Positions 3,729 through 38,378 of a stretch of 64,000 nucleotides of DNA are shown here, piece after piece. A model generated the notes under the pieces. The model saw only the letters and a list, made by a program, of their open reading frames with translations, ran no database searches and was not told the DNA's origin. The translations under genes and the position numbers were made by a program. Each line of letters starts with the position of its first letter. Within the stretch, counting starts at the first letter, position 1. The DNA comes from Nitrospira sp. MA-1 (GTDB lineage: Bacteria > Nitrospirota > Nitrospiria > Nitrospirales > UBA8639). The stretch is taken from the NCBI GenBank assembly GCA_032139905.1, contig JAQJDB010000007.1, forward strand, positions 496,001 to 560,000, given 5' to 3'.

Positions 3729-5609
3729 ATGAATGATCCTAATGCCAATATGCTGAGAGGTCCCTCTCAGCTGCCGATATCCTTCAGCCTGTGTGTGGCT
3801 GGGTTTCTGGTTGTCTTACTCTTTGGCGGCCTTGGCCTCTTGGCCGAGACCGACGCAGCCACCATTGTTATTGTGAATAAAGATAGCCCTGGTGAGGGAT
3901 TTAACGATCCTGCCCCTTTTACCCCAGTGGGTGGGAATACCGCGACAACGCTTGGGCAGGCGAGGTTGAAAGCCTTTGAGTATGCGGCAAATATTTTAGC
4001 GCAGGGATTGGTGAGTACGGTGGGCATTCGAGTCGATGCTCGAATTGATTCCTTAGGAGCAGGAATCCTGGGATCGGCTGGCCCTAATACCGTCCATCGG
4101 AATTTCCCCAATGCTCCGGTGGCGAATACCTGGTATGTTCAATCCTTGGCAAATAAATTTGCAGAACAGGACCTGGATCTGACTACCAGTGATATAAGTG
4201 CCACCTTCAGTGCAAATTTCACGAATTGGTATTTTGGGCTGGATGCCAACCCCCCAGCGGGACAATTTGATTTTGTCACCGTGGTACTTCATGAAATTAT
4301 CCATGGCCTTGGGTTTTTGTCATTGGTCGACGCCCTGACTGGAGAGACATTCCTTGGAGGCAATGATGCTTTTATGCGCTGGTTAGAGCATCATGGAGCC
4401 AGCCCGGCCGATTATCTTTCAATGACCGACCTGCAACGGCAATCTGCGAATGTTTCTTGGCAGAATCTTCATTTTGTTGGTGCCAGTCTTCAAGGGGCAT
4501 CTGGGACATTGACGGCCGGACGAACAAACACACATGTGCAAATGTATGCCCCGAACCCGGTTGAATTGGGTTCGTCGGTGTCTCATTTCACGAACACGAT
4601 TAAGCCAGATCAGCTTATGGAGCCTGGAATAGCTTCCGGAAGGGCGATTCATGATCTCGGGTTGGCTCAACCTCTGTTGCAGGATTTAGGATGGGTATTT
4701 GAAGCTGACGTGAGTTTTCCAATTCGAAATGATGTCAATGGGGACGAAAAGGCAGACCTCGTCTGGCGCAATACCAGCACGTGGGCTGTTGCGATTTGGT
4801 TGATGAACGGTCCTACGATTGCTTCCTCCGGTTCATTGGGCGTGGTGTCGTCGAAGTGGCAGGTTGCCGGTACCGGAGATGTCAATGAGGATGGGAAAGC
4901 AGATGTGATCTGGCGCCACAGCGATACCGGAACGGTAGCGGTGTGGCTGATGAATGGTCTCACTGTCATGTCGGTGGGTTTTCCGGGTAGTGTCTCTCTG
5001 GATTGGCAAATAGCGAGTGTGGGTGATGTTAACGGCGATGGGAGGGCAGACGTCGTTTGGCTAAACACGAGTAGTGGAGAAGTGACGATTTGGTTAATGA
5101 GCGGCTCCACGATTGCTTCTTCCGGCCACTTGGGTGCGGTGCCGTTGGAGTGGAAAATGGCCGGAATGGGAGATATGAATGCCGATGGAAAAGCGGATCT
5201 TATATGGAGGAATACCCTTACCGGCGCAGTGGAAACGTGGCTAATGCAGGGGCTCACGGTCCTGTCAATAGGTTTCACCGGTGGGGTCTCCACGGATTGG
5301 CAGATTGCGGGGGTGGGTGATGTGAATGATGACGGGATGGGGGATTTGGTTTGGCGCAAAACGAGTAACGGGGAGGTTGCAATTTGGTTGATGAATGGAG
5401 TGACTCTCAGTTCGCCGGGGTTTTTTGGCGTGGTGCCTCAGGGGTGGGAGATTGCTAACACCAGTGATGTCAATGGGGATGGGCGCGCAGATATTATTTG
5501 GCGTAATAAGCAGACGGGTACGGTGGCGGTGTGGATAATGAATGGGCTCGCAATCACGTCGATAGGCTTTCCGGGAAGTGCCTCAACCAACTGGAAAATT
5601 CAGCATTAG
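3729..5609 (+). CDS. Secreted zinc metalloprotease with six C-terminal FG-GAP-like repeats
   Basis: An N-terminal hydrophobic segment (residues ~15-45, ending near 'ETDAAT') is a signal peptide or anchor. The protease-like part spans ~45-330 and carries 'VVLHEIIHGLGF' (about residue 190), a metzincin-type HExxH zinc site with the following Gly. The usual third histidine of HExxHxxGxxH is a serine here. A later 'SSVSHFTN...DQLMEP' stretch may supply a ligand and the Met-turn. From base 4731 to the stop there are six ~49-residue blades ('DVNGDGKADxIWRN..AIWLMNG'), alternating two forms as in the gene at the start of the window. Peptidase activity is inferred from the motif. Confidence 0.82.
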   Translation: MNDPNANMLRGPSQLPISFSLCVAGFLVVLLFGGLGLLAETDAATIVIVNKDSPGEGFNDPAPFTPVGGNTATTLGQARLKAFEYAANILAQGLVSTVGIRVDARIDSLGAGILGSAGPNTVHRNFPNAPVANTWYVQSLANKFAEQDLDLTTSDISATFSANFTNWYFGLDANPPAGQFDFVTVVLHEIIHGLGFLSLVDALTGETFLGGNDAFMRWLEHHGASPADYLSMTDLQRQSANVSWQNLHFVGASLQGASGTLTAGRTNTHVQMYAPNPVELGSSVSHFTNTIKPDQLMEPGIASGRAIHDLGLAQPLLQDLGWVFEADVSFPIRNDVNGDEKADLVWRNTSTWAVAIWLMNGPTIASSGSLGVVSSKWQVAGTGDVNEDGKADVIWRHSDTGTVAVWLMNGLTVMSVGFPGSVSLDWQIASVGDVNGDGRADVVWLNTSSGEVTIWLMSGSTIASSGHLGAVPLEWKMAGMGDMNADGKADLIWRNTLTGAVETWLMQGLTVLSIGFTGGVSTDWQIAGVGDVNDDGMGDLVWRKTSNGEVAIWLMNGVTLSSPGFFGVVPQGWEIANTSDVNGDGRADIIWRNKQTGTVAVWIMNGLAITSIGFPGSASTNWKIQH

Positions 5610-12397: not shown

Positions 12398-13213
12398 ATG
12401 AATAATGCGTATAATCCCTTTGCGCCATTGATCTGTGCCTGGGAGCACAGAACTTTGATTGCTCGTCTTGCCAAGCGAGAGATCGATGCGCGTTATCGAG
12501 GGTCGATGCTTGGGGTCATCTGGGCCTTTGTTGTCCCGATATTGATGCTGGGGGTGTATACGTTTGTTTTTTCTGTGGTGTTTCGAATTCGATGGGAGGT
12601 GCCCATGGAGGAAAATGGCGCCTTTGCTCTGTTATTATTTTCTGGGTTGATTATTTTTAATTTATTTTCCGAATGCGTCACCCGTGCTCCGGGTCTTATG
12701 CTCGAAAATGTATCATATATTAAAAAGGTAGTGTTTCCTCTGGAAATAATGCCTTGGGTGTCAATGCAGGTGGCACTGTTTAACGCCGCCGTGAGTCTTT
12801 TGATTTTGTTGGTTTTTTACCTCGTAGTCCATGGCCTTCCACCAGTAACGGTATTGCTGTTGCCGGTCGTACTCTTTCCGTTTGTGTTGTTGATTGTAGG
12901 GTTGGGCTGGTTTCTGGCCTCAGTGGGGGTTTTTCTTCGTGATGTCCAACCTTTGGTCGGGGTGATGGTGACGATGATGATGTTTCTCAGTCCTATTTTT
13001 TATCCGCTGTCTGCTATTCCTGAAGCCTATCGAGGGTTGATTCAGCTCAATCCATTGACACCTGTTCTGAATGCGTCGAAATCAGTCATATTTTGGGGAC
13101 AAATGCCGGAATGGTTAGACTGGTTCCTGTATATGGTTGTGTTTTGGATGGTGGGTTGGTTGGGTTATGCATGGTTCCAAAAAACGCGAAAAGGATTTGC
13201 TGATGTCGTCTGA
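12398..13213 (+). CDS. wzm: Polysaccharide ABC exporter, permease subunit (Wzm family)
   Basis: A 271-residue ABC-2 type permease with six hydrophobic segments (about 35-57, 75-95, 110-145, 150-175, 185-205 and 235-258). It carries the family features 'LIARLAKREIDARYRGSMLG' at the N-terminus, 'NVSYIKKVVFPLEI' in the middle and 'LSPIFYPLSAIPE..RGLIQLNPLTP' near the C-terminus. Wzm forms the inner-membrane channel through which a lipid-linked O-antigen or other glycan is moved to the periplasm. Its last 11 bases overlap the start of the ATPase gene, so the two subunits are translationally coupled. It is the first gene of the polysaccharide locus. Confidence 0.92.
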   Translation: MNNAYNPFAPLICAWEHRTLIARLAKREIDARYRGSMLGVIWAFVVPILMLGVYTFVFSVVFRIRWEVPMEENGAFALLLFSGLIIFNLFSECVTRAPGLMLENVSYIKKVVFPLEIMPWVSMQVALFNAAVSLLILLVFYLVVHGLPPVTVLLLPVVLFPFVLLIVGLGWFLASVGVFLRDVQPLVGVMVTMMMFLSPIFYPLSAIPEAYRGLIQLNPLTPVLNASKSVIFWGQMPEWLDWFLYMVVFWMVGWLGYAWFQKTRKGFADVV

Positions 13214-14555
13214 ACTGGCTATACGCGTTCAAGGACTTGGAAAGGCCTATCAGATCTTTCGAAAGCCTGAAGATCGGTTGAAGCAGATGTTATGGAGAGG
13301 GCACCGACAGTTCTATGAAGAGTTTTGGGGCCTTCAGGGTGTGGATCTGAGCGTGTATCGAGGAGAAACGGTCGGGATTATTGGTCGAAATGGATCCGGG
13401 AAGTCGACGTTTTTACAAATGGTGTGCGGCACACTCTCGCCGACCTGTGGCGATTTGACTGTCAAGGGCCGAGTCGCGGCGCTGCTGGAATTGGGATCGA
13501 GTTTTAATCCTGAATTTACCGGGAAAGAAAATGTGTATTTGGCTGCCTCCATTCTTGGCCTAACCAGTGAGCAGATCGATTCCCGGTATGAATCCATAAC
13601 GGAATTTGCCGCCATTGGAGATTTCATTAATCATCCGGTTAAAATTTTTTCGAGTGGAATGTATGCGCGGTTGGCCTTTTCCCTTGTCGCTCATGTGGAT
13701 GCCGATATTCTGATTATCGATGAAATCCTTGCCGTGGGTGATGCCGCCTTTACTCAAAAATGTATGCGTTTCCTTCATCAATTTCGGGAAAAAGGCACGC
13801 TCCTGTTTGTCTCCCATGATACGGCTTCGGTGACTAATCTTTGCAACCGGGTTGTTTGGCTTGATAATGGGGCCGTCAGGGAAATTGGTCCCGCAAAAGA
13901 GGTCTGTCATAATTTCCTTGCTGCGCTGTATCACGAGCAGGAAAATGCCAATACCTTTCGTATTGGTGGAAGCCGCAAAGCTCCAACGGATTTAGCCATG
14001 CCGGTAAAAGATCCACGGAGTGAAATGTTAAAGAACTCTTCACATCGAAATGAGTTGGAGATTTTCGATTTCGATCCAAATGCTCCATGGTTTGGTGAAC
14101 GCGGAGCCAGTATTTGCGAAGTGGCGCTTTCCGATCAACATGGCTCTCTCCTGACAACGCTAGATGGCGGAGAGGAAGTCACGTTGACCATCCGGTGTGT
14201 GTCGGAACGACCTTTAGCGCGACCCATCCTTGGATTTTACGTGAAAGATCGACTAGGCCAGTATTTGTTTGGCGACAATACGTTTCTGATGTATCGTGAA
14301 GTTGACCGCTCCATTGAGAAGGGGCAACGATTTCACGCGATGTTTCGTTTCCAGCTTCCATATCTCCCAACCGGTGATTATTCGGTGATCGCGGCGATAG
14401 CCGAGGGGACTCCAGAGAATCACGCTCTTCATCATTGGATCGATGATGCCCTGTTTTTTCGAGTTCACTCAAGTCACGTCCTACGAGGGCTAATTGGCAT
14501 TCCGATGTTGGCGATTGAATTTGAATCTTCGGTGATGCCTTTGGCCCCGTCATGA
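13203..14555 (+). CDS. wzt: Polysaccharide ABC exporter ATPase with C-terminal carbohydrate-binding domain (Wzt)
   Basis: The ATG at 13203 (AAGGA upstream) gives the usual Wzt N-terminus 'MSSELAIRVQGLGKAYQIF'; a start at 13137 would add 22 residues inside the permease gene. The nucleotide-binding domain (1-250) has Walker A 'GRNGSGKST' at ~61-69, the signature 'FSSGMYARLAFSL', Walker B 'ILIIDE' at ~173 and a switch His in 'FVSHD'. Residues ~295-440 form a beta-rich Wzt_C domain ('GASICEVALSD', 'GEEVTLTIRCVSE', 'LGFYVKDRLGQYLFGDNT', 'TGDYSVIAAIAEG'). In known systems this domain recognises the capped non-reducing end of the glycan before export. This implies a chain with a terminator group, possibly a methyl or other cap made by neighbouring methyltransferases. 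Confidence 0.93.
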   Translation: MSSELAIRVQGLGKAYQIFRKPEDRLKQMLWRGHRQFYEEFWGLQGVDLSVYRGETVGIIGRNGSGKSTFLQMVCGTLSPTCGDLTVKGRVAALLELGSSFNPEFTGKENVYLAASILGLTSEQIDSRYESITEFAAIGDFINHPVKIFSSGMYARLAFSLVAHVDADILIIDEILAVGDAAFTQKCMRFLHQFREKGTLLFVSHDTASVTNLCNRVVWLDNGAVREIGPAKEVCHNFLAALYHEQENANTFRIGGSRKAPTDLAMPVKDPRSEMLKNSSHRNELEIFDFDPNAPWFGERGASICEVALSDQHGSLLTTLDGGEEVTLTIRCVSERPLARPILGFYVKDRLGQYLFGDNTFLMYREVDRSIEKGQRFHAMFRFQLPYLPTGDYSVIAAIAEGTPENHALHHWIDDALFFRVHSSHVLRGLIGIPMLAIEFESSVMPLAPS

Positions 14556-14693: not shown

Positions 14694-17600
14694 ATGAAAA
14701 AGATTGACGAACAGGTCTCCTCCGGGAGGATGCCATCGTTACCCGATGCAGATCAGGAAGGGGATGCCATTGAATCAAATTCAATCTTTCTGTCCTCCAC
14801 TGAAACAAAACAGGGCATTATTGCCGATGTGACAGAACCGCCAGATCTTCCGTGGACAGGCGAACGCTATGTTCCGGGAGTCATTGGAGATATTGAGCTA
14901 GAGCATTTGCATCGCTATTACCTTGCCCGTGAACTGGCGGTAGGGAAGGATGTGCTCGATATCGCATGTGGGGAGGGGTATGGTTCAGCCGTATTGGCTG
15001 AGGTTGCCCGGAATGTCGTGGGCGTTGATGTTTCGGAGGAGGTCATACGGTATGCAGCTGAACGCTATCAGCGTTCGAATGTCCAGTTTAAACATGGTGC
15101 ATGTGATCACATTCCCCTCCCTGATGCCAGCATGGACCTTATTGTGAGTTTTGAAACGCTTGAACATCATGATGTGCATCATGAAATGATGCGAGAGTTT
15201 GTTCGAGTTCTACGCCCGGACGGGCTGGTTCTCATCTCCAGCCCGGATAAGGCTGAATATTCCGATAAGCCACAGTTCGTCAATTCCTTTCATGTGAAGG
15301 AACTCTATTTCGAAGAGTTCCAAGAACTGTTGTTGAATTATTTCGGGCATGCGCAGTTTTATGGCCAGCGAGTGCGATATGGGTCATGTATTGGTCCGCT
15401 TCATAACGCTTCAACGCCGCCGGCAAACTTTCGATTATCCCAAGGGCGAGCCCATAAGTTTTTGAGTATTCCTGAGCCTGTCTATTTCGTGGCCATCGTC
15501 GGGAACGGAGAGTTACCCGTCCTTCCTTCTGGGATATTTGTTCCGGAAGTTCCAGAGTATTGGCATCAACACCTGGCGTTGCAGGCTGGCATTGAAGAAC
15601 GCGATCAACAGCTTAGCCATCTTCAAAGTCAGTTGTTGAGTGCCACGGCTGAACATGCACGTGTCCTTGAGGAACGGGATCAGCGCCTTAACAACCTGTA
15701 TGCCCGACTGCTGACGAAAGAGGAAGAATTACGTTGCATACATTCCTCCTTGCTATGGCGAAACATCAGCAAAGTAAGGATTTTGAGAGAACGGCTTTGT
15801 CCTGAGGGCTCACGCCGTGGCCGGGCCTGTGCCAGTTTTGTGCATTGGTTAAAGGGGTCAGGTGGTTCTGGCAATTCTAATGTGAAATCAAACGGTGGGT
15901 CACTTGATCGAATACTCGTGGTTGCAAAATCGATGGTGCCCGTTTCTTCTCACCGAAAACACCAATTGGTGGCGTTTGTCTTTTCACGGTTTGGCTCCTT
16001 TTTCCAACAGACGGCGAGTTATCGGCGGTGGAAGGACATGCAATTGCCTGCGCTTAAGGAGTCTGGAAATCTGGATTGCCTTACTCAGGGCCCTCCTCGC
16101 AAGATGCCTTTTCTCATTCAGCTTGGGCCGGGTGGGGTGACAGCGCTCGTCCAGTCATTCAATTTCACTGATGTGAATCAGCCTTTGGTGTCCATTGTGA
16201 TCCCTGTCTATAACCACTTGGAATACACCGTCTGTTGTTTGGCTTCTATTTTGAAACATGTGCCTCAGTGTAGTTTTGAGGTGATCGTCGTTGACGATGG
16301 ATCTCAGGATGAGACTTCAAATATTCTCTCAACCATAGATAATATCCGTTATTGTCGGAATGAGGACAACGTTGGGTTTCTGCGTTCGTGCAATACAGGC
16401 GCGTCATTGGCCAGAGGCCAATATCTGCTGTTTCTGAATAATGATACACAGGTGCTTGAGGGATGGTTGGATGAATTAGTAAACACGTTTCAAGAACAAT
16501 CGGATGTTGGCCTTGTGGGTTCAAAATTGCTGTATCCAAATGGTGTGCTTCAGGAGGCCGGGGCCATTATTAAGCCAGATGGTTCAGCAGAACTTGTGGG
16601 GTTGAATGGTGACCCGGACAGGCCTGAATATAATGTGGTGCGGGAGGTCGATTATTGCTCCGGGGCTAGTGTGCTCATAGAGGCCGAGGTGTTTAAGGCC
16701 TTGGGTGGATTCGATGATATTTATGCGCCCTGTTATTGTGAAGATTCCGATTTAGCCTTTAGGGTTAGAAAGGAGGGGAAGCGGGTCTTCTATCAACCGC
16801 GTTCCGTAGTCATTCACCATCTCAGTGTCAGTACCAATGATTCCAGACACGAAAAAACGCCTCTGGTGGCTCGCAATGTCAATACCTTTGTTCAACGGTG
16901 GAGCGATGAGCTGAAGAAGTTAAATGAGGTTCGTGCGATCGCTTTTTTTCTCCCACAATATCATCCCATTCCTGAAAATGATCTGTGGTGGGGAAAAGGT
17001 TTTACGGAATGGACGAATGTGACGAAAGCGCGACCGAATTTCAAAGGTCATTATCAACCCCATCTGCCAGCGGACTTGGGATTTTATGATTTACGTATGC
17101 CTGAGGTACGCGAAGAGCAGGCGCGTTTGGCTCGTCAGTATGGCATTTCAGCCTTCTGCTATTACTACTATTGGTTTGCCGGAAAGAAGCTCCTGAATCG
17201 CCCCCTCGACGAAGTGTTGCAATCCGGTGCTCCGGACTTTCCGTTCTGCCTCTGTTGGGCCAATGAGAACTGGACGAGGCGATGGGATGGGTGTGAAGAG
17301 GATATTCTCATCGCACAGAGTCATACCGAGGCGGATCATGCGGGCTTTATTGCAGAGATTGCCCCTGCATTGCTGGATCCACGATATGTCAGGATTCATG
17401 GAAAACCCCTCTTGATCGTGTATCGGCTCGGCCAGCTCCCAGATCCCAGACGTACGGCAGATCTGTGGCGGGAATTCTGTGTGAATGCGGGGATTGGGGA
17501 AATTTACTTAGCCTATGTACAGAGCTTTGAACGTATGACGATGGGAGACGATCCAAGTCTCTATGGGTTTGATGCGGCTATTGAATTTCCCCCTCATCGG

Positions 17601-17975
17601 TATCCGGTGCAAGCTGAGTTTCCACAACCCCTAATTAATCAAGATTATCAGGGTGTATTGTTTGACTATGGTCAGACATCCGAAAACTTTATACGAAGAA
17701 CTTGGCCATCCTACAAACTCTTTAAGGGCGTGATGCCTTCGTGGGACAATACCGCGCGTCGGCAGGATGTCTCTCATGTCTTTGTGGGTGCAACTCCTGA
17801 ACGATATGAATACTGGTTGCGACGGGTCGTTGAACAAACACGTCGGCTTCACTTTGGAGATGAACGGATAGTCTTTATTAATGCGTGGAACGAATGGGCC
17901 GAAGGTAATCACTTAGAGCCTGATCGGGAATTTGGTCATCAATATCTGGTGGCCACCAAAAATGCTCTCGGATAA
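14694..17975 (+). CDS. Three-domain enzyme: SAM methyltransferase - GT2 glycosyltransferase - WbsX-type glycosyltransferase
   Basis: 1093 residues. Residues ~50-290 are a class I methyltransferase (motif I '[11 protein letters not shown]' at ~87, then '[11 protein letters not shown]', '[11 protein letters not shown]', '[13 protein letters not shown]'). Residues ~290-345 are a coiled coil ('[16 protein letters not shown]', '[16 protein letters not shown]'). After a linker, residues ~497-720 are a GT-A fold family 2 transferase ('[16 protein letters not shown]', '[12 protein letters not shown]', 'FLNNDTQ', '[18 protein letters not shown]'). Residues ~745-1093 match the WbsX/GH99-like family ('[20 protein letters not shown]', '[15 protein letters not shown]', '[18 protein letters not shown]'). 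The layout resembles chain-terminating methyltransferase-coiled-coil proteins that work with Wzt_C exporters. This one could cap or extend the exported glycan; the exact substrates are unknown. Confidence 0.9.
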   Translation: [1093 protein letters not shown]

Positions 17976-27365: not shown

Positions 27366-27487
27366 TTTTACTTCAGAGTTGGTACCGAAGGATGACTGAC
27401 CCGTTACCGATTGACGATAATTGATGTACAAATAAGGATCGAATCTGAAATGAACAGGGAGTTAATAGTCCAGGGAGGTAAAAGCAA

Positions 27488-27724
27488 ATGAGATATTTAG
27501 GGAGTTTCCTTGTAGTCAGTATTATTGTCATTGTGTTCGGATTCGAAGGTTTGGCATCAGCTTATCTTGATCCTGGTACCGGAAGCATGGTGTTACAGCT
27601 CTTGTTGGGTGGTATCGCCGGTGCCGTGGTGATTCTCAAATTGTATTGGAGGCGATTTGTCGGACTATTTCGTGGAAATGCTCAAGAAGAATCTGAACAT
27701 CCCTCTTCCGAAGATCAAAAGTAA
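27488..27724 (+). CDS. Small 'YLDPGTGS' membrane protein, 78 aa
   Basis: GGAGG 10 bases before the ATG. An N-terminal hydrophobic segment (6-24) is followed by 'YLDPGTGSMVLQLLLGGIAG' and a second membrane segment leading into 'KLYWRRFVGLF' and an acidic tail. The YLDPGTGS-LLQ motif recurs, in my recollection, in small unnamed proteins next to methyltransferase and sulfatase-like genes in polysaccharide loci; no function is established. Its stop codon overlaps the start of the next gene (TAATG), so the two are translationally coupled, suggesting a stoichiometric partner or anchor. Confidence 0.8.
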   Translation: MRYLGSFLVVSIIVIVFGFEGLASAYLDPGTGSMVLQLLLGGIAGAVVILKLYWRRFVGLFRGNAQEESEHPSSEDQK

Positions 27725-29124
27725 TGGGTGGCGTTCAACCCCTTCCAGGATCTTTCCGGGATCCCAGTGGGAACGTGTATCAGGTTGAGGGGGGTATCTT
27801 TAGGACGGTCAATGAATGCTTTTCTCAGGATTTTGATTTTGTCACTTCAACAGGGCTATTCAAGAAACTTGCAGCCGAAGACTTGCTCCTTCCTTTTGAG
27901 GTCGTATCTTCAGAAGTTCTGAATCTCTCAGATCCTAAGCCTCGGTATGTGTTGAAAGCTCCCAGGCTCCCATTTATCTCCTATCCGTATGAATGGTCAT
28001 TTCCGGCTTTGAAAGCCGCTGCCCTCCTTCATTTACGCATCCATTTGCAGGCATTGGAAGTGGGTGCCACGCTCTCCGATGCCTCGGCTTACAATATTCA
28101 ATTTCAGGGAAATCACCCTGTTTTTATTGATCACCTCTCTTTTAGGCGCTACCAATCCGGTGAAATGTGGGTTGGTCATCGTCAATTTTGCGAACAATTC
28201 CTGAATCCTCTGTTACTTCGTGCATTGTTCGGAATATCCCACAACGCCTGGTTTCGAGGGACGCAGGAAGGAATTGGAACTGGAGAAATCCGAAGACTAC
28301 TGAAGGGGCGACACTACTGGAAGTGGAATGTATTGACCCACGTCGTCTTGCAAGATCTTTTCCAAAAAACCTCCACCAAACGTACTAAAAGCTTGCAGGA
28401 TCATTCGTTAGCCAAGGCCTCGCTCCCTCTTTCTTCTTTCAAGGCGATGCTGGGAAAAATGTCTCATTGGATTAGCCAATTGAAACCTCTGAATAAGGGA
28501 GGAAGTACCTGGGGAGACTACGATAAGACCTGTAGTTATTCTTCAATGGAAACCAAATCTAAAAAACAATTCATTCTTGAATTTGCCCAAAAGGTCCAGC
28601 CCTCACTGTTATGGGATTTTGGATGCAATACCGGGGAATATTCGGAAACGGCATTGAATGGCGGGGCCAGGAACGTAATAGGGTTTGACTTTGATCAGGG
28701 AGCCTTGGAGGGTAGTTATTATCGAGCCGTCGAGAGGCGTCTCTCCTTTCAGGCTCTCTTTATGGATGCGGCGAATCCGAGTCCAAGCCAAGGGTGGAAT
28801 GGTCGCGAGCGAGAAGGTCTGCAGTCCAGGGCCTCAGCGGATGCCGTATTAGCACTGGCTCTTGTTCACCATCTGGCTATTGCCAGGAATATCCCTTTGG
28901 TCCAGGTCATTAAATGGCTGATCACGCTTGCGCCACAGGGAGTCATTGAATTTGTTCCGAAAAATGATCCTATGGTGCAAGAGTTATTAAGCCTGCGTCA
29001 GGATATTTTCCCTGATTACACCGCTGAACATTTTATGGCGCTTCTTACAAAAAAGGCAGTGATCATTAAGAGCGAAACCGTCTCAAAAAGCGGACGGCTG
29101 TTGGTGTGGTTTAAACGAATGTAA
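27724..29124 (+). CDS. Class I SAM methyltransferase with long N-terminal domain
   Basis: 466 residues, ATG overlapping the previous stop. The N-terminal ~270 residues ('SFRDPSGNVYQVEGGIFRTV', 'LQALEVGATLSDASAYNIQF', 'PVFIDHLSFRRY', 'FCEQFLNPLLLRAL') form a domain with a kinase-like flavour ('DASAYNIQF..PVFIDHLSF'). The methyltransferase core follows at ~280-440: 'LLWDFGCNTGEYSETALNGG', 'VIGFDFDQGALE', 'DAVLALALVHHLAIARNIPL'. The combination resembles nodulation-type NoeA-like proteins. Coupled to the YLDPGTGS gene and followed by the AlkP-superfamily enzyme, it probably modifies a membrane- or lipid-linked glycan. Confidence 0.83.
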   Translation: MGGVQPLPGSFRDPSGNVYQVEGGIFRTVNECFSQDFDFVTSTGLFKKLAAEDLLLPFEVVSSEVLNLSDPKPRYVLKAPRLPFISYPYEWSFPALKAAALLHLRIHLQALEVGATLSDASAYNIQFQGNHPVFIDHLSFRRYQSGEMWVGHRQFCEQFLNPLLLRALFGISHNAWFRGTQEGIGTGEIRRLLKGRHYWKWNVLTHVVLQDLFQKTSTKRTKSLQDHSLAKASLPLSSFKAMLGKMSHWISQLKPLNKGGSTWGDYDKTCSYSSMETKSKKQFILEFAQKVQPSLLWDFGCNTGEYSETALNGGARNVIGFDFDQGALEGSYYRAVERRLSFQALFMDAANPSPSQGWNGREREGLQSRASADAVLALALVHHLAIARNIPLVQVIKWLITLAPQGVIEFVPKNDPMVQELLSLRQDIFPDYTAEHFMALLTKKAVIIKSETVSKSGRLLVWFKRM

Positions 29125-29323
29125 TTCAGAAATCTAATACCTGGTCAAATGTACGTGAAAATTTGAACCATCATGAAAATTCCGAGGTGTCGCTGAAAAA
29201 CGCCTTGAACTTTTCTGCACGTTTTCCTCAAAGACACTTTTCATCCTCCCCATAAAATCTGTATTTGAGCTTTACCTTTTTCTCTAGGGACCTAAATGAC
29301 CACTTCGTCAGGTGAGCCAAAAA

Positions 29324-31903
29324 ATGACTGGTAAGCGTATTGTCTTGAATGATTTTTTGCATTTGTTTGCTCTCGTTGGCTTTGCCATTGCCCAGCCCCT
29401 TTATGATCTTCTTGGACAAAACCCCGAGTTTTTTGTCTCTCATAAAGCCAGTTCTGGGCTTATCATGGGTATGATCTTTGTCCTATCAATGTGTATGCCT
29501 TTAGGTCTGGTGCTGCTTGAGCTCGCCGCTTGGGTGGTTGGTGAACGTGTTCGAAATAGCCTGCATCTCATATTTGTCTTTGCCCTGGCGTTTCTCATTG
29601 TCCTGCCTCCGGCGCAGCGATTGGTCGATGGGACCGATTTCTTGGTTGTCGGGTTTGCATTGTTAACCGGATTATTCTTTTCGGTCCTTTATGTTCGCTG
29701 GCAAGCGACCCGTCTATTCCTTACGGTGCTCTCACCCGTGGTGGTAGCATTTCCGCTTTGGTTTTTAATGTTTACTCCCGCCGGTCGTCTTGTTATGCCT
29801 GATGTCACTGAAGCACAGAACGATATTGTGATTACTAACCCGGTCCCGGTTGTCCTGGTGGTGCTGGATGAATTCAACATTACAGCATTATTAGATGCCA
29901 AAGGTCTGATTGATCCTGTGCGATTTCCTAACTTTGCGGCCTTGGCTTCGGAAAGCCAGTGGTTTACCAACGCCGCTGCAACGTATGTAGAAACCGCAGT
30001 TGCGGTGTCTGCAATTTTGACCGGGCGGAAACCCAGAGCCGATGTTCGACTCAACCCGACGGCAACAGATCATCCTCAAAATCTGTTCACACTATTGGGG
30101 GACCATTATCGTCTTAATGTTATTGAGTCGCTGACAAGATTATGTCCTCATGAACGTTGCAAGGAAGAAGAGGGTGCGGATGAATCCTTTCGTGATAAGT
30201 CGTTTTTTGCAGATCTGGTGGTGATATTTTTACATATCATTTCTCCCAAAAAATTAGCACGACACTTACCACCGCTTCATGCTCAATGGACGGGTTTCGG
30301 AGAGAAATTGTTGAAAAAAGGGATTTTCTCTCAGGCTAAGGTTGGTAGCCATTTCGATCCTTCTCCTGGCGGAAATAACTCCAGAGAGACGCGCCTTACC
30401 TCTTTCCTTTCCCAGATAAAAGAAAGCTCCAGTCCTGTTCTCCATTTTCTTCATGTGGTTCTTCCTCATACGAAATATGAGTATCTGGTGTCGGGGCATC
30501 AATATTCCTCCAAAGGAGGACACATTCCTGACGGTTGGATTGATGGACCTGGTTGGGGGGGGAGATGGATTGGAAAAGAGCCGATGATTCTCACCGCGTA
30601 CCACCAATATCTCCAGCAAATTGGATATGTTGACCAGTTTTTAGGGAAATTGCGCAGTTCACTTGAAAATGCACATCTTTATGATAAGGCTCTTATAATT
30701 GTCACAGCCGATCATGGTGTCTCCTTTCAGCGTGGGCTATCCATGCGAGAAGTGCAAAAAGGAAATGAAAGCGATATTCTAAAAGTTCCCATGTTCGTCA
30801 AATTGCCTGGGCAACATCAAGGGAGCATCAATGAGCGACTTGTCAGCGGGATTGATGTGTTACCAACTATTGCTGATGTCCTTGACTTCAAGATCCCCCG
30901 GGATATAGATGGGCTTTCTATGTTGGATAATGTAACCCCGCCAAGGGATGAGATAGATTTTCTCGGAGTTGGAAATATCAAAGCCCAGGACCTGAAGGGA
31001 TTTCCTCGTCTCAATTGGCAGGTAGAATATTTTGGAGAGCACACTTCACTTGATCGGCTTGTGCCAAAGGGGCCGGCTTCAAGCCTGATTGGACGAGACC
31101 CTTCCGATTTGGTCATTGGGCATTCGGCTTCGCTGCATTATATAAATGAAAATCTTAATCAATTAGATCAGGTGGATCCTGATGGCGCATACCTGCCTGC
31201 TCTTTTTAGCGGACAAATTGTCGGAACGAGCCGTCGGGACTTGCCCATTGCTGTTTCGCTTAATGGTCGAATTTGGGCCACCACGGAAACGTCCCAATGG
31301 GATGGAAAACTGAATTATTTCTCAGTTTTATTCCCTCCTTCAGCCTTCCAGGCAGGGGAAAATGAAATCAGTGTTTTTTTGATCCAGGAAAATCGTGGGG
31401 AATTAGCTCACATATCTTTGTTACATCCAGGTGCTGGGAGTGATGAGCCGTCAATGATCAGTTTGCGCCAAGAAACGTCTGGACAAATGAAACTTGTTTT
31501 CCCCGATGAGCGAGAGATCCTGGTCGATGTGGGTAAAACACACCTGACTGGCAATCTGGATCGTGTCACTCTTTCAGGGGGGGCATTTATTATAGAAGGA
31601 TGGGCTGCTGATCTTGAAAAGAATCAACCGGCTGAAGAGGTATGTATTTTTGCGGGCGGCCAATTAGTGGCTAGAGTGGCACTTGGAATATCGAGGCAGG
31701 ATGTCGTTGAGGCGCACCAGGAGGAAACTTTATTATACAGCGGATTCAGTATTAAAATCCCCCAGAAAGTGATCAAACTGTATTCGAGTTCGATCAATTT
31801 GATTGTTGTTTCACAAAACAACCGGGCACGGGAATTCTCATTTTCCCTCAAACAAACGGATTTTATGCGATCCACTCTTGAGAAAGACATTTTCACGCAA
31901 TAA
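29324..31903 (+). CDS. Membrane AlkP-superfamily (sulfatase-like) enzyme
   Basis: The ATG at 29324 has AGGTGAG 7 bases upstream; the GTG at 29312 has none. 859 residues. Residues ~5-150 contain four or five membrane segments. From ~180 the alkaline-phosphatase/sulfatase fold begins: 'VLVVLDEFN' (metal-binding Asp), 'TYVETAVAVSAILTGRKPR' (region of the nucleophilic Thr/Ser), 'HVVLPHTKYEYL' and 'LIIVTADHGVSF' (metal-binding DH), then 'VPMFVKLPGQ' and 'GIDVLPTIADVL'. A C-terminal beta-rich part (~600-859) is unassigned. Relatives transfer phosphoethanolamine or phosphoglycerol to surface glycans or cleave sulfate. The active site should face the periplasm. Confidence 0.83.
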   Translation: MTGKRIVLNDFLHLFALVGFAIAQPLYDLLGQNPEFFVSHKASSGLIMGMIFVLSMCMPLGLVLLELAAWVVGERVRNSLHLIFVFALAFLIVLPPAQRLVDGTDFLVVGFALLTGLFFSVLYVRWQATRLFLTVLSPVVVAFPLWFLMFTPAGRLVMPDVTEAQNDIVITNPVPVVLVVLDEFNITALLDAKGLIDPVRFPNFAALASESQWFTNAAATYVETAVAVSAILTGRKPRADVRLNPTATDHPQNLFTLLGDHYRLNVIESLTRLCPHERCKEEEGADESFRDKSFFADLVVIFLHIISPKKLARHLPPLHAQWTGFGEKLLKKGIFSQAKVGSHFDPSPGGNNSRETRLTSFLSQIKESSSPVLHFLHVVLPHTKYEYLVSGHQYSSKGGHIPDGWIDGPGWGGRWIGKEPMILTAYHQYLQQIGYVDQFLGKLRSSLENAHLYDKALIIVTADHGVSFQRGLSMREVQKGNESDILKVPMFVKLPGQHQGSINERLVSGIDVLPTIADVLDFKIPRDIDGLSMLDNVTPPRDEIDFLGVGNIKAQDLKGFPRLNWQVEYFGEHTSLDRLVPKGPASSLIGRDPSDLVIGHSASLHYINENLNQLDQVDPDGAYLPALFSGQIVGTSRRDLPIAVSLNGRIWATTETSQWDGKLNYFSVLFPPSAFQAGENEISVFLIQENRGELAHISLLHPGAGSDEPSMISLRQETSGQMKLVFPDEREILVDVGKTHLTGNLDRVTLSGGAFIIEGWAADLEKNQPAEEVCIFAGGQLVARVALGISRQDVVEAHQEETLLYSGFSIKIPQKVIKLYSSSINLIVVSQNNRAREFSFSLKQTDFMRSTLEKDIFTQ

Positions 31904-32307
31904 CCCCAGCCTGTAATGGCATATTCAATCATTTGTCATTGCAAGGCCAAGCTAGAACTCAACCGGAGAAAAATAGATACGTTTTAGTGTGTGAGGAGTA
32001 GTTCCAGCTTTTGAATCAGCGTGGTTCCCAAATCCTGGCATTCGAGCCTTTTTAGGATTAAAAGTGAAGTCTCCTGGGGTTGGAATGAGTGGGGCATGTT
32101 TTGTGGATTCGTCTGATCTGAGATTTTTGGAAGCTACACGTGCTTTTGTCCGTCTGGTTCTGGAGGAACCAATAGTTTGTTCTTGCTGCAATTGTTATTC
32201 GTAAAGCAGGGGCTGGGTGCCGAACCGGTTTCCCAAAAAGTATTTCATACGAAAATTATTGGCAGAATTGAAACCTCCCCTTCCGGCTCATTGGCGAGAA
32301 GTTAGCC
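31904..32307. other. Gene-free interval
   Basis: A 79-codon minus-strand frame (31952-32191) has no ribosome binding site or recognisable features. Nothing else was seen; a promoter for the SGNH gene is possible but was not located. Confidence 0.35.
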
Positions 32308-33534
32308 GTGCAATCCTTAAAACGAATGAAAAAGAACTCTGTCATTGTTATGGGATCAACCATTATTGCTATTTTTATCATGGAAGCTTTACTACGTGGG
32401 ATTGGGGTTCCATCTAAACTTAACTCGGGTTGGGGATGGGAAAATTCTGCGGGTAGAAAATTGTCAAAATATGATGCTTTGACAACCAATCAGTTTGGAT
32501 ATCGAGGACAAAACATTAACTATGATGCCGATGACTATGTGGTGCTGCTTGTGGGCGACAGCCAGGTCGAAGCGTATGCAGGTCGGCCGGAACATATGCC
32601 TGAACAGTTTCTTCAGGAATTCCTTACTAGTCAGTTGCATAAACCAGTGAAGGTATTTTCTCTTGCTGCTTCAGGGTGGGGACAGGACCAACAGCTCCTG
32701 GCCATTCAAGAATATTTTAGGGTTTATAGGGCAGACTTGGTTTTATTATGGGCAACCCCGGGAAATGACTTTTGGGAAAATGCGTTTCCAGATAGAAGCG
32801 TGACTCCGCTAGCGGGCCCTTTGAAGCCAACCTTTAGGTTGATAGATGGGAAGCTCTCTGGCCCTTATTTTACATCAGAATCCTACTTGCACAATAGCGC
32901 TATGGCTCAATTAATTGAGACTGTGATGGCAAATATGCAACAGGAAACATTAGAACAACGCATTCTTCGTCGTTGGCTTCAAAAGATGCCATCGTCCCAT
33001 ACAACCCATAAACCCGATAATGAAAATGTGTGTGGGGGACTGACAGTTGTTAATCAAGTAGAGTTTTTTAACACGATTTTTGATCTCAATAAGGATATTG
33101 GTTATACGGTTAAGTCTGGACAGGATGTCGTGAATAGCAGAAGTCTCTTTTCTGCTTATATGTTAGATCCATCCAATCGAGATGAATATCTTGTTGCGAT
33201 TACTGAAAGTCTTTTGTGGCATGTAAAAACGGAAGTGAAAAAGAATCATTCGGAATTTCTTGCTTTTTATCCTGTTCGGGAAGATTTTGATAAGCGAGGA
33301 ATGCAAATGGTGAGATGTGTGGCGGATTTTCAAGGAAATATATTTAGGGTTTCTTTGGACTTTACAAGTCGCTTGCAAGATGTAATCTCTTCTGAAGACT
33401 TAGTTGTCTTTGATTTGCTTGGTGGTAATGAAATTGTTGTTTCACCGGAAGATAGGCATTTAAATGATTTCGGAAACGAATTAGTGATGAAGAAACTGTC
33501 CTTAACTCTTATGGAGCGTTCGATATTCAATTGA
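32308..33534 (+). CDS. Membrane-anchored SGNH/GDSL-type hydrolase-like protein
   Basis: The GTG at 32308 (GAGAAG upstream) or ATG at 32326 gives a cytoplasmic basic start, then one membrane segment (~13-32, 'VIVMGSTIIAIFIMEALL') and a periplasmic body. 'VVLLVGDSQVEAYAGRPE' (~75-90) is SGNH block I with the catalytic Ser. 'VFSLAASGWGQDQQLLA' fits block II, 'DLVLLWATPGNDF' block III with Asn, and 'SPEDRHLNDFGNELV' near the C-terminus supplies Asp/His of block V. Such proteins act as O-acetyl transferases or esterases of extracellular polysaccharides. It follows the AlkP-type enzyme on the same strand and plausibly edits the same polymer. Confidence 0.78.
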   Translation: MQSLKRMKKNSVIVMGSTIIAIFIMEALLRGIGVPSKLNSGWGWENSAGRKLSKYDALTTNQFGYRGQNINYDADDYVVLLVGDSQVEAYAGRPEHMPEQFLQEFLTSQLHKPVKVFSLAASGWGQDQQLLAIQEYFRVYRADLVLLWATPGNDFWENAFPDRSVTPLAGPLKPTFRLIDGKLSGPYFTSESYLHNSAMAQLIETVMANMQQETLEQRILRRWLQKMPSSHTTHKPDNENVCGGLTVVNQVEFFNTIFDLNKDIGYTVKSGQDVVNSRSLFSAYMLDPSNRDEYLVAITESLLWHVKTEVKKNHSEFLAFYPVREDFDKRGMQMVRCVADFQGNIFRVSLDFTSRLQDVISSEDLVVFDLLGGNEIVVSPEDRHLNDFGNELVMKKLSLTLMERSIFN

Positions 33535-35799: not shown

Positions 35800-36984
35800 G
35801 TGAAGGTTGCGCTGGTTCATGATTGGCTTACTGGAATGCGAGGGGGGGAGCGGTGCCTTGAAGCGTTGTGTGAACTGTTTCCTGATGCGCCAATTTATAC
35901 GTTGTTCCACGTAAAAGGCAGTGTGTCGGATACGATTGAGCGGCATCCCATTATTCCAAGCTTTCTAAATAGAATCCCGTTTGCGAAGAGCCGATATCGG
36001 TATTTGCTCCCTTTCTTTCCTTCAGCCATTCAGCGGTTAGAAATTCAACAGTATGACTTGGTGGTGAGTTCGAGCCACTGCGTGGCCAAGGGTATTCGAG
36101 TGCCTCGCGAGACCTGCCATATATCCTATGTTCATACCCCCATGCGATATATCTGGGATGGATTTGATACCTATTTCGGAAACGCAGGATTTTGGAATGT
36201 TGGCAGGTTAGGAATGGCCCTTTTTCGGGCGCGACTTCAGCAGTGGGATATGGAATCCAATGCCCATGTGAGTCGTTTTATTGCCAATTCCCACAACGTG
36301 GCAGAACGAATCACGCGACAGTATGGGAGACCGGCATACGTGGTCTACCCACCCGTCGATTGGCAGGGCCATCAGGTGTCGCGTTGCCATGAAGGATTTT
36401 TCTTGATGGTCACGGCCTTTGCGCCTTACAAAAAAGTTGACCTGGCCATTGCCGCAGCGAATGAATTAGAGATTCGATTGAAAATTATTGGCCAAGGACA
36501 GGATGAAAAACGATTAAAGCGAATGGCCGGCCCTACTGTCGAGTTTCTTGGCTGGCAGCCAGACCATCGTGTCAGAGACTTTTACAGTCGGTGTCTGGCT
36601 GTTCTCTTCCCCGGTGAAGAGGATTTTGGTATTGTGCCATTGGAGGCAATGGCCACCGGGAAACCGGTAATTGCCTATGGAAAGGGTGGAGCCCTTGAAA
36701 CCATCGTTCCTCTCAATCCTTTGCCTAAGCTAGGCGAAAATCATTTAGAATGGGGCGCTCAAACGAGGGAATCTCATTCCGGGCTGACCGGGGTCTTCCA
36801 CTATGAGCAGTCGGTCCAAGCAATCATCGAAGCCATTCAGTTATTCAAACAGCACCTCACTGAGTTCGACCCGGATGCGATTCGGGACCATGTTGAACCA
36901 TTTGATCGCTCGCATTTCAAAGAGCAGGTGCAGCAAGTTATCATGTCCGCTTACCATGAGTTTCGTCGGGTCCCACTATGTTGA
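35800..36984 (+). CDS. Family 4 glycosyltransferase (mannosyltransferase-like)
   Basis: A GTG start with AAGGA upstream. 394 residues, opening 'MKVALVHDWLTGMRGGERCL', a hallmark of a GT4 subgroup often annotated as mannosyl- or GDP-sugar transferases. Further landmarks are 'SHCVAKGIRVP...HISYVHTPMRYIWD', 'AYKKVDLAIAAAN' (in 'TAFAPYKKVDLAIAAAN'), 'VEFLGWQPDHRVRDFYSRC' and 'PGEEDFGIVPLEAMATGKPV'. Its last seven bases overlap the initiating transferase gene. Use of GDP-heptose or GDP-mannose is a guess from the family and from hddA/hddC. Confidence 0.9.
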   Translation: MKVALVHDWLTGMRGGERCLEALCELFPDAPIYTLFHVKGSVSDTIERHPIIPSFLNRIPFAKSRYRYLLPFFPSAIQRLEIQQYDLVVSSSHCVAKGIRVPRETCHISYVHTPMRYIWDGFDTYFGNAGFWNVGRLGMALFRARLQQWDMESNAHVSRFIANSHNVAERITRQYGRPAYVVYPPVDWQGHQVSRCHEGFFLMVTAFAPYKKVDLAIAAANELEIRLKIIGQGQDEKRLKRMAGPTVEFLGWQPDHRVRDFYSRCLAVLFPGEEDFGIVPLEAMATGKPVIAYGKGGALETIVPLNPLPKLGENHLEWGAQTRESHSGLTGVFHYEQSVQAIIEAIQLFKQHLTEFDPDAIRDHVEPFDRSHFKEQVQQVIMSAYHEFRRVPLC

Positions 36985-38378
36985 AACGTCACAGTGAGTT
37001 TTTAAAAAATCTTCTCTTCCTCTCCGATTTGGTTGTGATCTGCGTATGTTGGGTTGGCGCCTACTTCATTCGTTTTTCTGTGCCGCTATTTCCCATTACC
37101 AAGGGCATTCCTTCCATTGACCCGTATCTCTGGCTGCTTTTTCCAATTGTCGCCGTATGGGGAATTTGTTTTTATTCATTTAATCTCTATCGGCCTAGAA
37201 GAATGGGATCTCACCTGGCGGAATTTGTCGACATTGCCAAGGCCAATACGCTGAGTATCCTGATCTTGGTCGCATTGACCTTTTTCTCGAAGCCGTTTGA
37301 GTTTTCCCGTTTGGTGATCATGTATTTTTGGTTGTTGAATTTGGTGGTATTGGGTTTTTCCAGGATGGTTTTTCGGGAAATTCTCAGGGTATTCAGGCGT
37401 ATGGGATACAACCAACGCCAGGTGGTGATTATCGGAGCAGGAAAACTTGGGCAGAGGGTGGGAGATACACTCAAAATGCATCCAGAGCTTGGCCTCCAGG
37501 TTCGCGGGTATTTGACCAGGAATGCTGAAAAGGTTGGTCAAACGTTGGAAGGGACACCTGTCATTGGAACATTTGACCAGGCGGCAGAAGTTTTAACCAG
37601 CAATGTGGATATCGTATTTTTGTGCTTGCCTCCTGAAGTGGAAAGTGAAGCTGAGGGACTGATGAAAATTCTGTCTGCCACCACAGCAGGAGTGAAGATC
37701 ATTCCATCCATTTATGAGTTCGTGACGTTGCGGGCGGAAGCCGAAATGTTCGAGGGCCTTCCTATTATTACTCTCCAGGGATCTCCGCTTTACGGGTGGA
37801 ATTTGTTTTTGAAACGGATGGTTGACGTTTGTGGTGCCGCCGTGGCCCTGGTGGTGGCCTCACCAATCGCATTGATGATTGCGGTACTCATTAAACTCAC
37901 CTCTCCAGGCCCTGTCTTTTACCGGCAGACTCGTGTTGGCCTTGATGGGAAATCGTTCAATATTGTGAAAATTCGGACCATGCGTATGGATGCCGAAGAA
38001 AAGACAGGTCCCGTCTGGACAAAAGCCCACGACCCACGCAGGACGCCCATCGGGACGTTTCTGCGACGAACCAGTTTGGATGAATTGCCGCAATTCTGGA
38101 ATGTCTTAAAGGGAGAGATGAGTATTGTGGGGCCGCGTCCCGAGCGACCGGAGTTTATCGAGAAATTCAGGGCCCAGATTCCCCAATATAACCTGCGTCA
38201 CACCATGAAAGCCGGAATTACGGGTTGGGCACAAATTAATGGATTGCGCGGAAATACCTCTTGGGAAAAACGTTTAGCCTACGATATGTATTATATTGAG
38301 CATTGGTCGTTATGGCTGGATGTGAAGATTATGATTATGACTCTTTGGAAGGGGTTGGTCCATCGGGAGGCGTATTAG
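36978..38378 (+). CDS. Undecaprenyl-phosphate glucose phosphotransferase-type initiating enzyme (WcaJ/PssY family)
   Basis: 466 residues. Four membrane segments in the first ~130 residues are followed by a Rossmann-like domain ('RQVVIIGAGKLGQRVGDTL', ~151) and the membrane re-entrant helix at ~275-305 ('FLKRMVDVCGAAVALVVASP'). The catalytic domain has 'GPVFYRQTRVGLDGKSFNI', 'KIRTMRMDAE', 'RRTSLDELPQFWNVLKGEMS', 'IVGPRPERPEF' and 'GITGWAQINGLRGN'. It adds a sugar 1-phosphate to undecaprenyl phosphate, the first step of repeat-unit or primer synthesis. It ends the polysaccharide locus, convergent to metG. Confidence 0.92.
   Translation: MLKRHSEFLKNLLFLSDLVVICVCWVGAYFIRFSVPLFPITKGIPSIDPYLWLLFPIVAVWGICFYSFNLYRPRRMGSHLAEFVDIAKANTLSILILVALTFFSKPFEFSRLVIMYFWLLNLVVLGFSRMVFREILRVFRRMGYNQRQVVIIGAGKLGQRVGDTLKMHPELGLQVRGYLTRNAEKVGQTLEGTPVIGTFDQAAEVLTSNVDIVFLCLPPEVESEAEGLMKILSATTAGVKIIPSIYEFVTLRAEAEMFEGLPIITLQGSPLYGWNLFLKRMVDVCGAAVALVVASPIALMIAVLIKLTSPGPVFYRQTRVGLDGKSFNIVKIRTMRMDAEEKTGPVWTKAHDPRRTPIGTFLRRTSLDELPQFWNVLKGEMSIVGPRPERPEFIEKFRAQIPQYNLRHTMKAGITGWAQINGLRGNTSWEKRLAYDMYYIEHWSLWLDVKIMIMTLWKGLVHREAY

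Follow-up and report, generated by a model that had tools for sequence, protein, structure and literature searches.

A NoeA-type kinase-methyltransferase, a small YLDPGTGS membrane protein and an AlkP-superfamily enzyme form a candidate glycan phospho-modification module in Nitrospira sp. MA-1

NoeA and NoeB are rhizobial host-range proteins described in 1995, when Ardourel et al. are said to have detected no Nod factor change in noeA and noeB mutants. We have analyzed a stretch of 64,000 nucleotides from Nitrospira sp. MA-1 (GCA_032139905.1, contig JAQJDB010000007.1, positions 496,001 to 560,000, from a 4.76-Mb genome in 7 contigs; the whole stretch is called the window below), in which a NoeA homologue is encoded together with a 78-residue membrane protein carrying the motif YLDPGTGS and a membrane enzyme of the alkaline phosphatase (AlkP) superfamily. 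With slightly better than even confidence, we read the locus as a NoeA-type glycan phospho-modification module, consisting of a kinase and phosphate methyltransferase, a small docking protein and an AlkP enzyme with a threonine nucleophile.

Proteins with the same kinase-methyltransferase architecture were catalogued in Legionella in 2022 as Lani_1194 and, in the passages of that description cited here (PMC9758233), about 94% of some two thousand kinase relatives bear a methyltransferase, with Lani_1193 (65%) and Lani_1195 (38%) as conserved neighbors, one of them with an alkaline phosphatase fold. These passages treat the proteins as putative effectors, describe neither the YLDPGTGS motif nor a phosphate-methylating site of the WbdD type, predict an AlkP fold for NoeB, and word the Nod factor result of the noeA/noeB mutants differently. 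The initial annotation of the window had called the gene set undescribed, which is only partly true, as NoeA and NoeB are of the same kind and the family and its neighborhood are published (PMC9758233).

The other relevant system is WbdD, the chain terminator of the Escherichia coli O9a antigen, which also joins a kinase and a methyltransferase in one protein within a Wzm/Wzt context and for which we know of no small partner or AlkP enzyme. The changes H132A, H133A and R203A, or a change of Y16, abolish phosphate methylation by WbdD; R203 is conserved in neither NodS nor RebM (PMC3482155).

The NoeA homologue and its active sites

Judged by its sequence, the 466-residue protein of the window (METHYLTRANSFERASE) is a member of the NoeA (Lani_1194) kinase-methyltransferase family, with full-length homology to NoeA and 44% identity to the Sinorhizobium protein over 98% (residues 7-465). 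As in that family, it has a catalytic Asp and Asn, a Mg-binding Asp and an Arg replacing Lys72, and an AlkP-fold, NoeB-like enzyme is encoded beside it. A methyltransferase with a kinase-like N-terminal domain had been proposed from the sequence, and we indeed found a separate N-terminal domain followed by a C-terminal class I methyltransferase fold (predicted model with a predicted local distance difference test [pLDDT] of 91.5). Within the kinase-like half, R27, D119, N124 and D136 are invariant in 62 relatives that have 25-88% identity to the window protein, and the D-x4-N spacing is the same as that of WbdD D351/N356. According to the family description, D119, N124 and D136 have the roles of D166, N171 and D184 in protein kinase A (PMC9758233).

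When the profile of the methyltransferase domain was compared with all PDB sequences, the four best matches were the four WbdD entries (E about 1e-4). Aligning the NoeA profile to plasmid-encoded WbdD proteins pairs WbdD D59, G61, H132, H133, E160 and R203 with NoeA D298, G300, H382, H383, E409 and R458, the last four of which are invariant in all 62 relatives, so that each of the phosphate-methylating residues H132, H133 and R203 has its counterpart. As a control, we aligned eight further methyltransferases encoded in these or related loci; they match poorly or only around the S-adenosylmethionine (SAM) motif, and in no case are the HH and the R positions both paired. In structure comparisons, the domain scores Z 16.8 with WbdD and Z 17.8 with the methylphosphate capping enzyme, tied with other methyltransferases. 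The main new proposal of this analysis is that NoeA is probably a phosphate methyltransferase that methylates what its own kinase domain has phosphorylated.

The YLDPGTGS protein and the conservation of the module

The four open reading frames (ORFs) of the initial annotation (small protein, methyltransferase, AlkP and SGNH) were all recovered (Table 1), and the proposed translational coupling of the first two agrees with their stop/start overlap, in which the TAA of the small ORF shares one base with the methyltransferase ATG (AGTAATGG). In the small protein, the single helix is followed C-terminally by a basic tail, and the AxA before the motif Tyr is a signal peptidase I site. Our search pattern selected Ala at -1 and the core motif, whereas Ala at -3 (74 of 95 relatives), Gln at +11 (93/95) and Trp at +28 (89/95) are highly conserved without having been selected. 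One IMG/VR relative starts directly as MYLDPG, a natural form which supports a working protein that would begin at Tyr, and Novosphingobium has a YLDAASAS variant of the motif. We found no Pfam or NCBIfam family for the small protein and no relative of solved structure by sequence, and the string YLDPGTGS was not found in the literature searched. DUF1328 was rejected, as the match covers only the hydrophobic leader and lies well below the cut-off.

The same protein is present, unnamed, in the classical nodL-noeA-noeB operon, because the 71-residue hypothetical ORF between nodL and noeA in Sinorhizobium meliloti, which overlaps noeA, translates into a leader ending in AHA followed by YLDPGTGSMLVQGL. 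The two loci share the small protein, a 44% identical methyltransferase and an AlkP-fold partner directly downstream (NoeB matches the window AlkP profile weakly, E 2e-7), but the S. meliloti genes lie on the symbiosis plasmid in a nodulation context and those of the window in a polysaccharide cluster.

A worldwide scan seeded on the small protein alone gave at least 473 confirmed relatives, and the best 80 loci were retained. Within the fetched DNA, the methyltransferase gene was found in 73 of these and the AlkP gene in 58; since these loci hold the nearest relatives of the small protein, the 91% linkage to NoeA is not an unbiased rate, nor is it corrected for relatedness. In the 47 loci that extend over 13 kb or more, the counts were 44 and 35. 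Gene order is shuffled (small protein-methyltransferase-AlkP, AlkP-small protein-methyltransferase, AlkP-methyltransferase-small protein, methyltransferase-AlkP-small protein and divergent arrangements). The record titles of the small protein cover at least 15 phyla, including Pseudomonadota, Nitrospirota, Acidobacteriota, Binatota, Bacteroidota, Actinomycetota, Chloroflexota, Planctomycetota, Armatimonadota, Elusimicrobiota and Patescibacteria. Seeding in reverse, on the methyltransferase, recovered the small protein, often unannotated, in all seven loci outside Nitrospirota (Planctomycetota, Gemmatimonadota, Deltaproteobacteria, Rhizobium and three IMG/VR contigs). A strong NoeA match was obtained in 16 of 245 Nitrospirota genomes, of which 15 also encode the small protein, each time within ~2 kb, against a base rate of ~9% for the small protein (Fisher p 2e-17, relatedness ignored). 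The closest locus elsewhere among the matches listed belongs to a Nitrospirota bacterium (L056), with an 85% identical small protein.

The conserved module anticipated from the sequence is thus real, very widespread and partly known, and the claim of four proteins shrinks to three. Relatives of the SGNH-like protein, in which GDSQ and DRHLNDFG blocks are visible and which matched no Pfam or NCBIfam family, were found in 2 of 100 loci, each of which belongs to the genus of the window, and it was rejected as a fourth member. Two other neighbors, a PhyH dioxygenase (2/100) and a polysaccharide deacetylase (0/100), were rejected as members as well. Anti-phage defense was discarded, since PADLOC matches none of the four proteins, and so was phage cargo, as NoeA was not found in 50,697 phage records and the three IMG/VR contigs bearing NoeA with the small protein may be host DNA.

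Several further loci deserve mention. More divergent NoeA-like proteins with no detectable small protein nearby are encoded in four Nitrospirota loci (L184-L187; G217, G207, G042, G035). In a sister species, the NoeA gene is split into two overlapping frames (G262 contig 1 near 2056211-2057609; L028, L035), possibly a natural disruption or a sequencing error. Elsewhere, a YLDPGSG leader is fused to a CDP-glycerol:poly(glycerophosphate) glycerophosphotransferase-like domain (L050 5673-6983, G018), and a YLDPGTGS gene is followed by an overlapping YidC (60KD_IMP) gene (L131 7938-9781).

The AlkP enzyme and the polysaccharide context

The 863-residue protein belongs to the Sulfatase/AlkP superfamily (PF00884, E 1.7e-23) and has N-terminal membrane helices, an extracytoplasmic catalytic domain at about residues 175-566 and extra C-terminal beta domains (predicted model with pLDDT 87). 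Fold searches gave Z 25-28.7 to sulfatases, phosphonate monoester hydrolases, YejM and LtaP. D186, H381, H386, D467 and H468 are invariant among 41 aligned AlkP sequences, and a type I sulfatase with formylglycine (FGly) was rejected, as the nucleophile position, which would need Cys or Ser for FGly, holds Thr in the window enzyme (Thr228, the predicted nucleophile) and in 40 of the 41 sequences overall (Ser in the other). T228, D186, D467 and H468, and also H381 and H386, correspond to the Thr nucleophile and the Asp and Asp-His metal ligands found in the extracytoplasmic domain of LtaS/EptA-type phosphotransferases. Because they are conserved, the enzyme is not an FGly sulfatase and would probably be active as a phosphotransferase or phosphodiesterase. 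Like LtaS, LtaP and YejM, it carries an extracytoplasmic AlkP domain with these residues behind its membrane helices, but at the sequence level the matches lie mostly in the metal-site half of the catalytic domain, and the C-terminal beta domains are extra in the window enzyme.

The surface-polymer setting suggested by the initial annotation is supported within the window. Upstream of the module there are HddA-like (23440) and HddC-like (25807) GDP-heptose genes, assigned from best NCBIfam matches below the curated cut-offs, and the gene of the PhyH dioxygenase. Genes for glycosyltransferases and for an initiating sugar transferase follow downstream. Some 13-15 kb upstream, a Wzm-like permease and a Wzt-like ATPase are encoded; the ATPase carries a Wzt_C domain and has 33% identity to an O9-family Wzt over 411 residues. 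Capped O antigens are recognized by the C-terminal domain of Wzt, and methylation and (methyl-)phosphorylation are among the known caps (PMC9445017). In two Rhizobiales loci, the genes of the small protein and NoeA directly adjoin Wzm and Wzt with Wzt_C, together with multi-domain glycosyltransferases.

The Bac_transf initiating transferase is found at 36978-38378, in the same region as Wzm/Wzt, and a 1093-residue fusion protein that joins methyltransferase, GT2 and WbsX glycosyltransferase domains lies at 14694-17975. Two FG-GAP repeat proteins are encoded at the left end of the window (56-1897 and 3729-5609).

Table 1. Positions of the module genes, predicted active-site residues and export genes in the window.
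Feature	Positions	Strand	Basis and remarks
Ribosome-binding site of the small ORF, about AGGGAGGT	27474..27481	+	Clear site, read from sequence; few nucleotides 5' of ATG
Small membrane protein, 78 residues	27488..27724	+	Signal-peptide-like 1-25 (ends ASA), YLDPGTGS 26-33, one hydrophobic helix, basic tail
YLDPGTGS codons, predicted mature N terminus	27563..27586	+	AxA before Tyr in most relatives; one relative MYLDPG
NoeA homologue, 466 residues	27724..29124	+	Kinase-like domain ~1-250, class I methyltransferase domain ~259-466; 44% identity to S. meliloti NoeA
Kinase catalytic residues D119, N124, D136	28078..28131	+	Invariant in 62 homologues; roles per PMC9758233
H382-H383, methyltransferase domain	28867..28872	+	Aligned to WbdD H132-H133
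R458	29095..29097	+	Aligned to WbdD R203
Membrane AlkP-superfamily enzyme, 863 residues	29312..31903	+	PF00884, predicted model, fold search
Thr228, predicted nucleophile	29993..29995	+	Thr in 40 of 41 sequences, Ser in the other
SGNH-like protein, 408 residues, neighbor outside the conserved module	32308..33534	+	Relatives in 2/100 loci
Wzm-like ABC-2 permease, same polymer cluster (context)	12398..13213	+	PF01061
Wzt-like ATPase with Wzt_C cap-recognition domain (context)	13137..14555	+	PF00005 and PF14524; true start probably downstream

Proposed function and alternatives

If the locus is a glycan phospho-modification module, as we favor, the N-terminal kinase-like domain of NoeA would phosphorylate, in the cytosol, a hydroxyl of a glycan that is probably lipid-linked, and the C-terminal domain would methylate that phosphate to leave a methyl-phosphate substituent, as WbdD does on the O9a O antigen. 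Signal peptidase would cut the leader of the small protein after AxA, leaving the Tyr-Leu-Asp-Pro-Gly tip outside, the helix in the membrane and the basic tail in the cytosol, and the small protein would then dock the soluble NoeA at the membrane, beside an AlkP partner that would use its Thr nucleophile for phospho-transfer or for phosphodiester chemistry at the outer face. From its sequence neighborhoods, the small protein looks like a docking protein for envelope phospho-transfer enzymes, with NoeA as its main client. The product in the window would probably be a heptose-containing polymer exported by the Wzm/Wzt of the same cluster. We infer the substrate, the methyl-phosphate product, the docking role and the part played by the AlkP enzyme. 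NoeA would cap or decorate lipid-linked glycans, capping of the chain being only one option and internal decoration another, because a polysaccharide gene was found (by a simple search) in 23 of 58 well-flanked NoeA loci and the 1093-residue fusion could be an alternative chain-capping or chain-length protein.

These two points weigh against the module as proposed, and several others have to be set beside the computed results, which are the conservation of the module, the homology to NoeA, the invariant active sites and the match to WbdD residues. The kinase half matched no PDB chain by sequence and has no detectable similarity to the WbdD kinase (profile comparison probability 0.7%, at the sequence level only). 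In WbdD, the methyltransferase comes first and is followed by the kinase and a coiled-coil tail, whereas NoeA begins with the kinase-like domain, ends with the methyltransferase and is without the tail. Because the kinase sequences are dissimilar and the domain order is reversed, NoeA would work like WbdD but is not WbdD. We know of no enzymatic activity for any NoeA, twin histidines are also present in N-methyltransferases such as NodS, and the profile alignment did not pair WbdD Y16 with the invariant Y266, a mere candidate that is near in position. A pseudokinase or a sugar-binding regulatory domain at the N terminus would make NoeA a plain O-methyltransferase of glycan hydroxyls, and the AlkP enzyme would independently add phosphoglycerol or phosphoethanolamine from phospholipid. 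One AlkP partner is in fact annotated as a lipoteichoic acid (LTA) synthase, the methyltransferase fold is also near N- and O-methyltransferases (Z 18.0 to NodS) and, in this family, Arg occupies the Lys72 position and no ion-pair Glu can be recognized (PMC9758233). We regard this alternative as unlikely, since the invariance of R27, D119, N124 and D136 in 62 highly diverged sequences argues for nucleotide chemistry and R458 matches the phosphate-binding Arg of WbdD, absent from NodS.

The distribution of the genes also counts against a module of three. The AlkP gene is absent nearby in 19 of the 73 NoeA-bearing loci and sometimes accompanies the small protein where NoeA is missing, and AlkP is therefore a frequent but separable partner. 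The expectation that the small protein would not occur without the methyltransferase holds only in part, as it does so in 7 of the 80 global loci and in 8 of the 23 Nitrospirota genomes that have it; such NoeA-less forms sometimes adjoin, or are fused to, other phospho-transfer enzymes. It could be argued that the YLDPGTGS protein is a mere generic membrane-localization tag co-transcribed with various enzymes, with NoeA and AlkP in separate pathways, given that its leader and helix are fused to or lie beside CDP-glycerol glycerophosphotransferase-like enzymes and are also found beside PF01663 phosphodiesterases, a carbamoyltransferase and YidC. The extreme conservation of the outward tip (Y, D, P, G), however, exceeds the needs of an anchor, the partners are mostly phospho-transfer enzymes and the linkage to NoeA is ~90%, which makes a mere tag very improbable. 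The position of the module among polysaccharide genes in the window and in ~40% of the well-flanked loci, together with the action of WbdD, the closest methyltransferase, on a glycan, likewise argues against a role in making or modifying a phospholipid or carrier-lipid head group, with the small protein and AlkP handling lipids; we find such a role quite improbable, even though the AlkP relatives LtaS/LtaP and YejM act on or bind lipids and many NoeA loci have no detectable polysaccharide genes.

A more specific form of the glycan phospho-modification module would be a cross-membrane relay, in which NoeA would place a methyl-phosphate on a cytosolic, carrier-linked sugar, the YLDPGTGS protein would couple the two faces and the AlkP Thr would transfer the group to a polymer outside. 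We hold this relay to be distinctly unlikely; if true, it would be a three-component glycan phospho-modification system across bacterial phyla.

What is newest in this analysis is the prediction of a specific chemistry for NoeA, along with the recurrence of an unnamed membrane partner. The match between the NoeA and WbdD sites gives a concrete test, namely, the ATP- and SAM-dependent formation of methyl-phosphate on a glycan. The unnamed 71-residue gene inside the noeA operon is now open to nodulation genetics, and a widespread family of small proteins gains a functional setting.

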